From positions 62,001 to 126,000 of the forward strand of contig CAIWKE010000028.1 of NCBI GenBank assembly GCA_903913215.1: a stretch of 64,000 nucleotides of DNA, given 5' to 3'. This stretch comes from an uncultured Holophagaceae bacterium. Lineage in GTDB: Bacteria; Acidobacteriota; Holophagae; Holophagales; Holophagaceae. This document shows positions 30,146 through 37,202 of this stretch, in pieces. A program made the position numbers and the translations under genes. The notes beneath the pieces were generated by a model. It did not search any database. It was not told where the DNA came from and saw only the letters and a list, made by a program, of their open reading frames with translations. Position 1 is the stretch's first letter, and every line of letters begins with the position of its first letter.

Positions 30146-32620
30146 TCAGCCCATGGGCTCTTCGTGCTTGCAGGCGGGGCATACCAGCACCTGGATCGGA
30201 TCCTTGCCACGGGGCTTCTTGGTCTTTTCGCCCATCATGGGGTTCTTGCAGGCGGGGCAGGTGACGGGCACGGGCTTGTCCCAGGCGGTGAAGTCGCACT
30301 TGGGATAGTTGGTGCAGCCGTAGAAGACCTTGCCGAAGCGCGTCTTGCGGGGGCTGATGCCGCCTCCGCACTTGGGGCAGGGGATGGCCAGGATCTCCTT
30401 CTTCACGGTCTTGCAGCCTGGGTAGTCGATGCAGCAGACGAACTCACCGTAGCGGCCATGGCGCTTCACGAAGCCCTTGCCGCAGTTGGGGCAGTTCTCC
30501 CCGGTGGGCTCGTCGGCGGGAACGGGAATGCCCTTGGGGTCGGCCTTCACGATGCCCTTGCACTTGGGGTAGTTGGGGCAGGCCCAGAAGGGGCCCCACT
30601 GGCCCTTGCGCAGGTTCATGGGGGTGGTGCCACACAGCGGGCACTCCGGCGCGTCTTCGGGCTCTTCCATCTTCTCGAGGTCTGCGGTGTAGTCGCACTT
30701 GTCCTTTTCGAGTTCGGCGCTGTAATTCGTACAGCCCACGAAGAGGCCATTGCGGCCGATGCGCTTGAGCAGCGTGCCGGCGCCCTTCTTGCGGGTGCCG
30801 CACTTGGGGCAGGCCTCGCCTGTGGGCACGCCGGCCTTCAGGTTCTGCATGTCCCGGCCGGCGGCGGCCAGGGATTCCTCGAAGGGGCCGTAGAAGTCCG
30901 TCATGGCCTTCTTGAAGGTGAGCTTGCCTTCCTCGATGCGGTCGAGGTTGCCCTCCATGCCCGAGGTGTACTTGGGATCCATGAGGTCCACGAAGCCCTG
31001 CAGCAGCAGCTCCGTGACGGTCATGCCCAGATCCGTAGGCTTGAAACGACCCTCGTGTTTCTTGACGTAGTCGCGGTCCTGGATGGTGCTGATGATGCTG
31101 GCGTAGGTGGAGGGGCGGCCGATGCCATCCTCTTCCAGTTCCTTCACCAGGGTGGCTTCATTGAAGCGGGTGGGGGGCTTGGTGAACTGCTGGTCCGCGT
31201 CGAGCTGCTCGAGCTTGAGGGCCTCGCCGAGCTTCAGGGCCGGCAGTAGGGTGTCATCCTCTTCCTCTTCTTCGGGGCCCTTGGTGGCATCGGCGATGGC
31301 TTCGGCGTCGGTCTCGGTCTTGTCGGCGCGGTAGACCGCCAGCCAGCCCGGGAAGCGCTCGATCTCACCCTTGGCCTCGAAGAGGGCCGTGTCCTTGCCC
31401 GCGGTGGCCTCGGTCTGAACCACGGTCTCGTCGAAGCGGGCGGCCTCCATCTGCGAGGCCATGGTGCGGCGCCAGATGAGGGCGTAGAGGCGGAACTGGT
31501 CCGGCTCCAACTGGCCGCGCAGGCTCTCGGGCGTGCGGGTGATGTCCGTGGGGCGGATGGCCTCATGGGCGTCCTGGGCGCCGGCCTTGCCGGTGTAGAT
31601 GCGGGCCTTGGCGGGCAGGTATTCCTTGCCGTATTTGTCGGCGATAAACTCGCGGGTGGCCTCCACGGCCTCGGGGGCCATGCGCGGCGAGTCGGTTCTC
31701 ATGTAGGTGATGAGGCCCACGGGGCCTTCGCCGAAGTCGACGCCTTCATAAAGTCGCTGAGCGTTCTGCATGGTGCGGCTCACGCTCATCTTGAGCTTCT
31801 GGGCCGATTCCTGCTGCAGCTTGGCGGTGGTGAAGGGGGCGGCCGGATTCCGCTTCTTCTCCTTGGTCTCCAGGCCCGTGACGGTGTACTGGGCTTTCTC
31901 CAGCTTCGCCTTCAGATCTTGGGCCTGGACGCCATCGCCGACCCGGCGCTTGGTTTCCTTGTTGCCCAGCTGCAGGGGCTGTCCACCCAGCTTCACAAGC
32001 TTCATCCAGAAGGTGGGCGGCAGCTTGGCGGCGAAGCGGCCCTTCAACACCCAGTATTCGACGGGGTTGAAGGCCAGGATCTCCTTTTCGCGATCCACGA
32101 TGATGCGCACGGCCACGCTCTGCACGCGCCCGGCGCTGAGGCCGCGGCGCACCTTGTCCCAGAGCACCTGGCTGACCTTGTAGCCCACCAGGCGGTCCAG
32201 CACGCGGCGGGCCCGCTGGGCATCCACCAGCTTCTTATTAATGACCGTGGGCGCGGCCATGGCCTTCTGGATACCTGCGGGGGTGATCTCGTTGAAGAGG
32301 ACCCGACTTACGGGGAGGCTCTTGGGCGGCTTGATGGCCTCCAGCAGGTGCCAGCTGATGGCCTCCCCCTCGCGGTCAGGATCCGTTGCGAGAATCAGTT
32401 CATCGGCAGTCTTGGCGGCGGCACGAAGCTCCTTGACCACCTTCTCCTTGGCCGGGCTGATCTCGTACTCCTCCTGGAAGCCGTTCTCGATGTCCACGCC
32501 CAGCTTACGGGGCAGGTCCCGGATGTGGCCTACGGAGGCCATCACCTTGTACCCCTTGCCGAGGTACTTGGTGATGGTCTTGGCCTTGGAGGGGCTTTCG
32601 ACGATCACGAGCTTGGTCAA
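30146..32620 (-). CDS. topA: DNA topoisomerase I
   Basis: 824 residues from a TTG at 32620, preceded by GGGAG and yielding the canonical (M)TKLVIVESPSKAKTI start; the longer ATG reading adds a non-conserved leader. Toprim domain (about 1-140), type IA core with catalytic Tyr in VGLITYMRTDS (about residue 305), and five C-terminal zinc ribbons, four with full Cys4 sets (for example CPKCGTRKKG, CPNCGKGFVK, CPKCGGGISP). It relaxes negative supercoils. It lies directly downstream of dprA, a common bacterial arrangement. Confidence 0.95.
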   Translation of the reverse strand: MTKLVIVESPSKAKTITKYLGKGYKVMASVGHIRDLPRKLGVDIENGFQEEYEISPAKEKVVKELRAAAKTADELILATDPDREGEAISWHLLEAIKPPKSLPVSRVLFNEITPAGIQKAMAAPTVINKKLVDAQRARRVLDRLVGYKVSQVLWDKVRRGLSAGRVQSVAVRIIVDREKEILAFNPVEYWVLKGRFAAKLPPTFWMKLVKLGGQPLQLGNKETKRRVGDGVQAQDLKAKLEKAQYTVTGLETKEKKRNPAAPFTTAKLQQESAQKLKMSVSRTMQNAQRLYEGVDFGEGPVGLITYMRTDSPRMAPEAVEATREFIADKYGKEYLPAKARIYTGKAGAQDAHEAIRPTDITRTPESLRGQLEPDQFRLYALIWRRTMASQMEAARFDETVVQTEATAGKDTALFEAKGEIERFPGWLAVYRADKTETDAEAIADATKGPEEEEEDDTLLPALKLGEALKLEQLDADQQFTKPPTRFNEATLVKELEEDGIGRPSTYASIISTIQDRDYVKKHEGRFKPTDLGMTVTELLLQGFVDLMDPKYTSGMEGNLDRIEEGKLTFKKAMTDFYGPFEESLAAAGRDMQNLKAGVPTGEACPKCGTRKKGAGTLLKRIGRNGLFVGCTNYSAELEKDKCDYTADLEKMEEPEDAPECPLCGTTPMNLRKGQWGPFWACPNYPKCKGIVKADPKGIPVPADEPTGENCPNCGKGFVKRHGRYGEFVCCIDYPGCKTVKKEILAIPCPKCGGGISPRKTRFGKVFYGCTNYPKCDFTAWDKPVPVTCPACKNPMMGEKTKKPRGKDPIQVLVCPACKHEEPMG

Positions 32621-32669
32621 TGGAGGACTCCCTACTGGCCTAAGGATGGATCCTATTGGCACACCTTTG

Positions 32670-33515
32670 TCAAGTGACCGGTAGGGCAGAAAGGTCCTCC
32701 AGGAGGTTGGCTGTGGATAGGCAAATCATTGCAGCGCCTTCTCTTAACAAAAAATTTGGGCCTTCGACCGAAAGGTCCTCCGGGGCGCCGGGGCAGACCC
32801 ATAGCTCCTTGCCCAGGTCCAGGGCCAGCCGGGCCGTCACCAGGGAGCCGGACTTCAGCCGGGCTTCCGTGACCAGGACACCCTGAGTCCAGGCCGCCAA
32901 CAGCCAGTTGCGACGGGGGAAGTGCCAGCGCAGGGGCGGAGCCTGGGGCGGAAAGGGGGTGAGGACGCCGTCTCCCGCCGCCACCATGCGGTCCATGAGG
33001 GGCCGGTTCTCCGGCGGGTAGGGGTGATCCAGGCCGGAACCCATGACGCCCCAGGTGGGGCCCGCCGCCAGGGCTCCCTCCTGGGCGGCCCCGTCAATGC
33101 CCCGCGCCAGGCCCGAGATCACCGCCACACCCGCCTCCGTGAGGGCTCGCGCCCAGGCCCGGGTGCGCTCCCATCCCCGCTTGGAGGCCACACGGCTGCC
33201 CACGATGGCCACCCGCAGGCCCGGGGGTGGCAGGCTGCCCCGCACCCAGAGGGCCACTGGATAGGGCAGGGGGGCGATGAGAGGGTCGGCACCTTCGTCG
33301 CCAGGCAGCAGGAGGCGGGCGCCCCGGTCCAGGGCCTCCTGGCGCAGGTGGGGCAGCTACGCCGCAAGGTGTTCCAAGGCCCCCACCTGCTCTGGTGCCA
33401 GCGCCGGGGCCGGGTCCAGCTGGAGGGCCGCCCAGAGCCGGGCTTTCTGGCGCTCAGGCCAGTCCAGCAAGGTGAAGGCGAGGGCCCAGAGGCGAAGGTC
33501 GAAGGGGTGGACCAT
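32670..33515 (-). pseudogene. dprA: DprA-like DNA-processing protein interrupted by in-frame TAG
   Basis: One continuous minus-strand frame runs from ATG 33515 (MVHPFDLRLWALAFTLL) to the stop at 32670 but has a TAG at 33359-33357, after GALEHLAA. The text continues in the same frame with LPHLRQEALDRGARLLL and then the Rossmann core VAIVGSRVASKRG, ISGLARGIDGAAQEG and GSLVTARLALDLG of DprA, the RecA/ssDNA loader for transformation. Full length would be about 281 residues, lacking the C-terminal winged helix of longer homologues. A single CAG to TAG change would explain it. A truncated product from an internal GTG at 33257 is possible but no SD is seen. Adjacent to topA as is usual. Confidence 0.8.
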
Positions 33516-33575
33516 ACGGGTTCCAGCGGGATGCCCCCATGCTGGCGGCGGATGTCCCGAATTCCAACTGCAAAA

Positions 33576-33770
33576 GAGAAACCGCGAAAGGCGCGAAAGG
33601 GCGTGAAAGGATGGGATCAAGGTTCGGAGGGCCGAGCTGGCGGCGCCACGAAGGGTTGGTCAATCTAAAATAATTAAAATAATGAATTTAGCAACATAGG
33701 ACACAAGGGGCCCGAATGCACAGGTGGCCAAGCTTTTTTTAGCGTCTTTTCGCGCGTTTCGCGGTTCTCC
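33576..33770. repeat. Inverted pair of CGCGAAA-type intergenic repeats
   Basis: GAGAAACCGCGAAAGGCGCG plus GAAAGG follow-on (33576-33610) reappears inverted at 33741-33770 (read on the minus strand, GGAGAACCGCGAAACGCGCG then AAAAGACGC). The two copies face each other across about 130 bases of partly AT-rich DNA between dprA and rpmB. Same style as the elements at 23971, 25043 and 36525. Confidence 0.6.
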
Positions 33771-33819
33771 TTTTCTCTTCGTGGTTTCTGGGTCAGGGGC
33801 CACCCGCCATCCTTTCTGC

Positions 33820-35831: not shown

Positions 35832-35958
35832 AAATGCTGTCGAGTCCTGCTGCAACCTTTCCCACAGCTCAGCGCGACCTCCTCAACCTCAGGCCTGTGG
35901 CCACCTCAGTAGCGCTGAGCCCCCCGGCCACCCCTTGTCTCCATTCCCTACCCCCAGG

Positions 35959-35989
35959 TCTTGACCAACAGGACCAATCCACTCATATT
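35959..35989 (+). promoter_or_regulatory. Candidate promoter of first rrf2 gene
   Basis: TTGACC (35961-35966) and CATATT (35984-35989) with 17-base spacing lie upstream of the ATG at 36011. The -35 lies within TCTTGACCAA, a 10-mer also present at 36663 before the second rrf2 gene, so it may overlap an autoregulatory operator. Confidence 0.45.
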
Positions 35990-36010
35990 TGGGGTCTCTC
36001 TGGGGACGCC

Positions 36011-36508
36011 ATGCTCGGAATCTCGCGACAGACCGACTACGCCGCCCGCGTGGTGCTGCACCTAGCCTGTCTGGCGCCCGGGGCCAAGGTGCCCATTGCC
36101 GACATCGCCAGGCACCGGATGCTGCCCCTGGATTTCGTGCGGCGCATCGTGGGCGACTTGGTGAAGGCGGGCGTCCTCAAAACCTCCCGGGGCTCCGGGG
36201 GCGGCGTGAGCCTGGCCCGGCCCGCAGCGGAAATCTCCCTGGGCGAGGTGGTCCACGCCATGGAAGGGGGTATCGCCCTCAACCACTGCGTGAGCGACCG
36301 CCGCGTCTGTCCCCTGGCGGACCAGTGCCCCGTGCAGTCCGTCTGGGTGGAGGCCACCCAGGTGCTGGATGACTATCTGGTCTCCGTGCGCTTCGATCTG
36401 CTGGCCCTCCGCAGTGCCACCCACCAATCCGCCCACCAGCGCGTGCAGGCCCACGGCCGCGTGCGCGGCGCCGAGCGCTGCCCCATTGCGGACGTGGTCT
36501 CGACCTGA
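36011..36508 (+). CDS. Rrf2-family iron-sulfur transcription regulator (first of two)
   Basis: 165 residues from ATG 36011 (in-frame sequence further upstream is not conserved). N-terminal winged helix ISRQTDYAARVVLHLACL, recognition region and wing KTSRGSGGGVSLARPAAEIS, then three cysteines in C-x6-C-x5-C (NHCVSDRRVCPLADQC) able to hold a 2Fe-2S or 4Fe-4S cluster as in IscR, NsrR or RsrR. Senses iron-sulfur status, NO or redox state. No isc/suf genes are adjacent, so the regulon cannot be guessed. About 60% identical by eye to the next gene's product. Confidence 0.9.
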   Translation: MLGISRQTDYAARVVLHLACLAPGAKVPIADIARHRMLPLDFVRRIVGDLVKAGVLKTSRGSGGGVSLARPAAEISLGEVVHAMEGGIALNHCVSDRRVCPLADQCPVQSVWVEATQVLDDYLVSVRFDLLALRSATHQSAHQRVQAHGRVRGAERCPIADVVST

Positions 36509-36719: not shown

Positions 36720-37202
36720 ATGATCGGCATCTCCCGGCAGTCGGATTACGCAGCACGTCTCGTGCTGCATCTGGCCTGTCTGCCTGCGGGGACACGGGTT
36801 TCGATCCCCGAGATCTCGGAGACCCGGCTCCTGCCCGCGCCGTTCACCCGCCGCATCGTGGGCGACCTGGTGAAGGCTGGCTTGCTCAAGACCCAGCGCG
36901 GCACAGGCGGCGGCATCAGCTTGGCCCGGCCCGCGGCGGAGATCTCCCTGCTGGACATCCTCAACGCCGTCGAAGGTGGCGTGGTCCTGAATGCCTGCCT
37001 GGAGGGCGGGAAGCCCTGTGTCTTCGGGCAGGGCTGCCTGGTCCAGCGGGCCTGGGGCCAGGCGACGGACCTGCTGCAGCAACATCTAACCACCGTCACG
37101 TTTGACACGCTGGTGGCGGCCTCGCCCAGCCACCAGTCCGCCCACAATGAGCGCGCCGCTGCGGTGCGCAAACCCCTGCGCAAGACCAAGCCCCCCGTCT
37201 GA
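36720..37202 (+). CDS. Rrf2-family iron-sulfur transcription regulator (second of two)
   Basis: 160 residues, MIGISRQSDYAARLVLHLAC, wing GTGGGISLARPAAEIS, and cysteines again in C-x6-C-x5-C (NACLEGGKPCVFGQGC). Close paralogue of the gene at 36011. The helix following the DNA-binding domain differs most (TRLLPAPFTRR against HRMLPLDFVRR), so the two may read different operators or signals. The basic tail RKPLRKTKPPV is unusual. Confidence 0.9.
   Translation: MIGISRQSDYAARLVLHLACLPAGTRVSIPEISETRLLPAPFTRRIVGDLVKAGLLKTQRGTGGGISLARPAAEISLLDILNAVEGGVVLNACLEGGKPCVFGQGCLVQRAWGQATDLLQQHLTTVTFDTLVAASPSHQSAHNERAAAVRKPLRKTKPPV

Follow-up and report, generated by a model that had tools for sequence, protein, structure and literature searches.

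An in-frame amber codon in dprA and the probable loss of natural transformation in a member of the Geothrix group

Introduction

The window, that is, the whole stretch of 64,000 nucleotides that was analyzed, contains a DprA-like reading frame that is cut by a TAG codon close to its start. Is this gene a pseudogene, does it still yield a shortened working protein, is the stop a sequencing or assembly error, or is the codon read as an amino acid? We address this question through the predicted structure of the protein, the state of the gene across the genus, the fate of other transformation genes in the same genome, and the way in which this genome uses its stop codons.

The interrupted dprA frame

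The stop that the initial annotation had reported at 33359-33357 is present on the minus strand: the frame begins with an ATG at 33515, runs through 52 codons up to the TAG, continues with 228 sense codons, and closes with a TGA at 32672-32670 (Table 1). The length of about 281 residues given there for a restored product is right as well. A search of the genome that carries the window (G000) recovered a single dprA and, with the TAG at codon 53, DprA is not encoded there by one uninterrupted frame. The next frame downstream, which we take to be topA, served as a control and for the construction of a tree.

Table 1. Coordinates of the interrupted dprA frame, its parts, and its downstream neighbor
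Feature	Position in the window	Strand	Remarks
Interrupted dprA frame	32670..33515	-	281 codon positions including the TAG, plus the final TGA; PF02481 behind the stop
In-frame TAG, codon 53	33357..33359	-	29/29 aligned congeners have Asp, Ser or Asn here
52-codon piece before the TAG	33360..33515	-	First two helices and start of the third, N-terminal helical domain (predicted)
228-codon piece after the TAG	32673..33356	-	Rossmann-type DNA_processg_A domain; free of other stops and frameshifts
Evident restart frame after the TAG	32670..33257	-	GTG is the first ATG/GTG/TTG; 195 aa
topA (DNA topoisomerase I) frame, presumed	30146..32662	-	Next downstream of dprA; internal stops: 0

The similarity to DprA that had been noted on both sides of the stop was confirmed. 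The piece behind the TAG matches PF02481 (DNA_processg_A) with an E-value of 4.4e-54 and 183 bits, above the cut-off of 29.6, and TIGR00732 (dprA) with an E-value of 1.5e-52 and 178 bits, below the equivalog cut-off of 191.15 bits; the intact DprA of a relative likewise stays below this value (187.8 bits). The 52-codon piece before the TAG, when searched alone, hits none of the Pfam and NCBIfam models at E-values up to 1. Beyond the first few residues, however, it can be aligned gap-free with the N-terminal regions of 29 congeners, and its match exceeds chance because the full-length DprA of a congener runs through the stop with 82% identity.

The structure predicted for the intact DprA of a relative (277 amino acids; 16 sequences; mean pLDDT 92.7) starts with three helices, formed by residues 3-12, 17-28 and 37-59, which are followed by alternating strands and helices; the DprA of an intact relative matches the structure 3maj over residues 44 to 270. 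The column of the TAG corresponds to residue 49 of the modelled protein and is thus predicted to lie within the third N-terminal helix, ahead of the Rossmann fold. Since the stop falls into this helix, the peptide made before it is predicted to lack the Rossmann domain. With the DprA proteins represented by TIGR00732 and by the structures 3maj, 3uqz and 4ljr, the locus shares the Rossmann domain, which is here in frame behind the stop; it differs from them in that its coding frame is interrupted, and the Geothrix form falls just short of the TIGR00732 cut-off even when intact.

Two further features were seen in this part of the window. Just upstream of dprA there is an inverted repeat of 37 bases (33572-33608 and 33738-33774; 78% complementary, 129 bases apart). 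Two similar regulator-like frames, presumably Rrf2-like, lie in tandem at 35834-36508 and 36720-37202, and either one can also be aligned with the counterpart of its neighbor in the related genome G019.

The host genome and dprA across the genus

The genome that carries the window comprises 3,902,199 bases in 41 contigs and is 95.04% complete with 0.45% contamination. In a scan of public genomes, the named relatives consisted for the most part of Geothrix species and of metagenome assemblies from Holophagaceae, with a best identity of 82%, and on these grounds we assign the bacterium to the Geothrix group.

The comparison with close relatives that had been recommended revealed an open frame at the TAG column in all 29 aligned congeners, which carry Asp (GAC or GAT) in 20 cases, Ser (AGC) in eight and Asn (AAC) in one. 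Gln is found in none of them, and the suggestion that CAG is the normal codon is therefore not borne out. Because every codon present at this column in the relatives is at least two substitutions away from TAG, CAG could at most have been a possible intermediate on the way to the stop.

A dprA match is present in 41 of the 47 genomes of the genus set, which includes the window's own. The gene is full-length and open in 37 of these, carries the TAG in the window's genome, is decayed in G003, and is partial in G064 and G065, where it lies at contig ends. No match was found in six genomes (G062, G020, G010, G033, G034, G026), five of which are 64-80% complete. Two of the six were considered as losses of both dprA and comEC and were not counted: neither gene was found in G034, but only 143 bases separate topA from the upstream end of its contig, and neither was found in G020, but a topA orthologue was not found there either. 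As in the window, dprA directly adjoins topA in many genomes of the genus. As expected of a pseudogene, orthologues are intact in close relatives, commonly in the same genomic place. There is also variation among the relatives: the two genes are about 10 kb apart in seven genomes (G063, L213:1300-11346; G006, G015, G017, G024, G031, G036), and the C-terminus of DprA is unlike the rest in G006, G017, G024, G031, G036 and G004.

Further lesions in the transformation pathway

ComEC forms the inner-membrane DNA channel. The only comEC found in the window's genome carries an in-frame TAG, and about 237 codons are missing from it in frame. When 38 genomes were searched with the Competence model (PF03772), its frame reached 396 amino acids versus at least 778 in the 34 other matching genomes; in the comparison with relatives, the match breaks off at residue 412 and restarts at residue 648 of 776. 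The TAG lies at residue 141; 24 of 30 relatives have Gln there. The deletion removed about 710 bases and is located at a short repeat: both of its ends could be placed in 17 of the 30 relatives tried, and in 10 of these 17 an identical word of 7-9 bases is found at the two ends. This fits a slippage deletion, and we infer that the repeat is too short to make an assembly collapse likely.

The ComEA-type HhH protein is still encoded by an open frame and scores 64 bits versus 79-85 in seven relatives. It departs from these relatives at five of the 48 columns that are invariant among them, including the glycine of the HhH hairpin; in a control comparison, each of the seven differs from the other six at only 0-2 columns. 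PilQ and three PilT-family ATPase frames are above cut-off in the window's genome and free of stops, as is a ComF-like frame, which scores below the TIGR00201 cut-off here as it does in all 47 genomes. ComM/YifB proved unusable as a pathway marker: the TIGR00368 cut-off is passed by 8 of 14 control genomes and by none of the 47 genomes of the genus. That other genes of the same pathway are broken in the same genome, comEC by a nonsense codon and a deletion and ComEA by missense changes, is a further property expected of a pseudogene. The impairment of natural transformation suspected in the initial annotation thus very probably amounts to its loss, with comEC independently broken.

Contig C36 of this genome carries a lone additional ATPase gene (L261:2908-4545, minus strand) whose product of 546 amino acids has MshEN and T2SSE domains, is PilB/GspE-like, and is encoded beside nuo genes in G019. 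An in-frame TAA (L261:3790-3792) precedes the ATPase core in the window's genome; in each of six congeners examined, including G003, the gene is open. We considered it as a further part of the competence machinery but left it out of the count, since G003 keeps this gene undamaged despite the loss of its comEC and dprA.

A second case within the genus

G003, a genome of 360 contigs that is 85% complete, has damage of its own in both genes. Its dprA (L206:3732-4334) shows a gap between residues 52 and 159, a frame change and a TGA, and its comEC (L207:1404-2460) shows a gap between residues 180 and 597, a frame change and stops; a ComEA of about 108 amino acids was not found in this incomplete genome. 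A tree built from the topA of 35 genomes joins the window's genome to G031 (support 84/98), and G003 falls into a different clade, next to G022 (96/95); dprA and comEC are both intact in G031 and in G022. The losses in the window's genome and in G003 look independent.

When the two genes are considered jointly in the 39 genomes that could be judged, both are intact in 37, both are broken in two, and no genome is mixed (Fisher p 0.0013, a value that ignores kinship and leans on the fragmented and 85% complete genome of G003). Left out of this count were eight of the 47 genomes, namely the six that gave no dprA match, together with G064 and G065, whose dprA lies at contig ends. Apparent comEC stops in G063, G031 and G065 lie within the last few residues and were rejected as damage; these genes were scored as intact.

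Rate of change and competing explanations

The mean dN of dprA relative to topA is 3.09 in the window's genome, which ranks sixth among 30, and dN/dS was about 0.30 when measured against its closest relative by topA. Breaks at invariant columns (3/110) are tied for the highest among 37 and are only weakly raised. H-to-Q, H-to-N and G-to-D changes are found at positions where 34 or more of the other 36 congeners share one residue and the rest have no letter. Taken together, the rate of change of dprA does not appear to be clearly raised. This, and the otherwise undamaged frame, would speak against a pseudogene; from the two it would follow that the stop is recent, or that part of the product is still useful.

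The latter possibility takes the form of a shortened but working DprA, made through a restart at GTG 33257 or through low-level readthrough, whose Rossmann fragment would bind single-stranded DNA in a role outside transformation. The clean and still seemingly constrained downstream frame is in keeping with this, the restart product of 195 amino acids would hold most of the Rossmann domain, and the predicted N-terminal helices (residues 3-59) precede the Rossmann elements. Moreover, short forms of DprA exist: the solved chains 4ljr, 5mll and 4ljk, which we take to be H. pylori proteins, comprise 219-229 residues and align from query residue 97 onward, with only about 40 chain residues ahead of this point. 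However, no Shine-Dalgarno-like run was seen by eye before GTG 33257, and a restart there, at residue 83 of the relative, is predicted to cost the protein a strand (63-65) and a helix (72-76) as well. The three substitutions at near-uniform columns and the retention of the N-terminus in the 37 full-length congeners also count against a shortened DprA, which we regard as improbable.

Still less credible is a sequencing or assembly error in the dprA of an otherwise competent strain. In its favor, the remainder of the frame is intact, and no codon of the relatives lies fewer than two changes from the TAG. Against it, the comEC of this genome has two lesions of its own, one of them the loss of about 710 bases at a short repeat, and ComEA is degraded too. 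As the whole story, the assembly error raised in the initial annotation is unlikely, for errors would be needed in dprA, twice in comEC, and in comEA. The distribution of interrupted frames in a comparison with orthologues in G019 also argues against it. In version 1, confined to contig C28, 25/87 own frames versus 15/91 in the reverse direction were interrupted, figures dominated by antisense shadow frames and duplicated genes; version 2, on the same contig, gave 12/75, near-start stops included, versus 5/76. Version 3 took in contig C28, the greater part of C36, and small portions of C27 and C40, and found mid-gene stops in 12/163 own frames versus 11/168 in the reverse direction; this crude rate is alike both ways, a point against the pseudogene reading, and does not set the genome apart, and genome-wide decay was thus rejected. 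Among the 12 own interrupted frames, dprA and one secretion-type ATPase were the only ones assigned to a known family; a Pfam scan of six others gave no match, and the remaining four are short (107-127 amino acids).

A reading of TAG as an amino acid, be it by an amber suppressor, as pyrrolysine or through a changed code, could draw on the occurrence of in-frame TAG codons in two competence genes (dprA and comEC), but it was rejected as exceedingly improbable because TAG ends 46 of the 149 own genes whose ends agree with those of their G019 orthologues (TGA 83, TAA 20; TAG 48/149 in G019) and is an ordinary terminator here, because the proposed search for a suppressor tRNA found the anticodon CTA in none of the 39 tRNAs typed by ARAGORN (40 hits in the 95% complete genome), and because recoding would leave the comEC deletion standing. 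The 40th hit (L142:230-294 on contig C11; 65 bases) is weak (30.7 bits) and was not called by ARAGORN; by eye, its loop reads GAA. Of the overall reading in the initial annotation, the DprA similarity on both sides and the product length hold, and the loss of transformation is very probable; for CAG as the usual codon there is no support, a fragment with only the Rossmann domain is improbable, and neither an assembly error as sole cause nor suppressed readthrough is likely.

A pseudogene in a lost pathway

We conclude that dprA has, with high probability, become a pseudogene recently, and that its stop is one among several lesions in a natural-transformation pathway that has been lost; judged from its genes, the bacterium can most likely no longer import and retain foreign DNA. 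In the course of events that we envision, ComEC would have failed first, or together with dprA. Because the loss of ComEC would leave no incoming single strand to be protected and loaded with RecA, the main job of DprA would be gone, and a nonsense mutation in its gene would then be tolerated. The genes for type IV pili would have been retained since pili have other uses. The present output of dprA would be at most a peptide of 52 residues, or a little of an N-terminally shortened Rossmann fragment.

Relation to known systems and significance

The loss of competence through broken genes is a well-known kind of gene loss. A study on Acinetobacter baumannii (PMC11472951) describes comM as inactivated in 22% of the Acinetobacter strains; as in the present case, part of a group has an inactivated transformation gene that its other members keep. 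There, it is comM that is hit by mobile elements, whereas here comEC, dprA and comEA are affected by nonsense mutations, a deletion at a repeat, and missense changes, and the TIGR00368 model for ComM is passed by none of the 47 genomes of the Geothrix genus. The available Piscirickettsia salmonis genomes have an interrupted comEC, as here, with an intact dprA, according to PMC12955456; the interruptions are due to transposable elements and the other transformation genes are intact, in contrast to the additional decay of dprA and ComEA in the window's genome.

From ComEC-bearing soil genomes, with Acidobacteria among the phyla sampled, natural competence was inferred to be common in abundant soil bacteria and to help recombination; as far as the accessible part of this work (PMC7305173) goes, competence in Acidobacteriota has so far been inferred only from genome data. 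The word Acidobacteria was not found in the accessible part of a paper on the evolution of ComEC (PMC6299819), and no report on competence in Geothrix was found in the openly licensed literature, in which a single aquifer paper mentions both Geothrix and natural transformation, once each. The case of a broken dprA and comEC in Geothrix appears to be new, while the kind of loss is known.

We tentatively propose, as an idea that may well prove wrong, that transformation is ancestral to the Geothrix group and is being lost from it time and again in modular fashion, with ComEC, DprA and ComEA disappearing together in separate lineages while the pilus and ComF-like frames are kept. If this is true, genuine DNA uptake in Acidobacteriota would be recognizable by an intact set of comEC, dprA and comEA, and DprA would have no strong role outside transformation in these bacteria. 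The pseudogene reading itself explains the odd stop in dprA through a loss that spans the pathway, and not as an isolated curiosity or a case of recoding, and it makes Geothrix strains with intact genes candidates in which natural transformation in Acidobacteriota could be tested.
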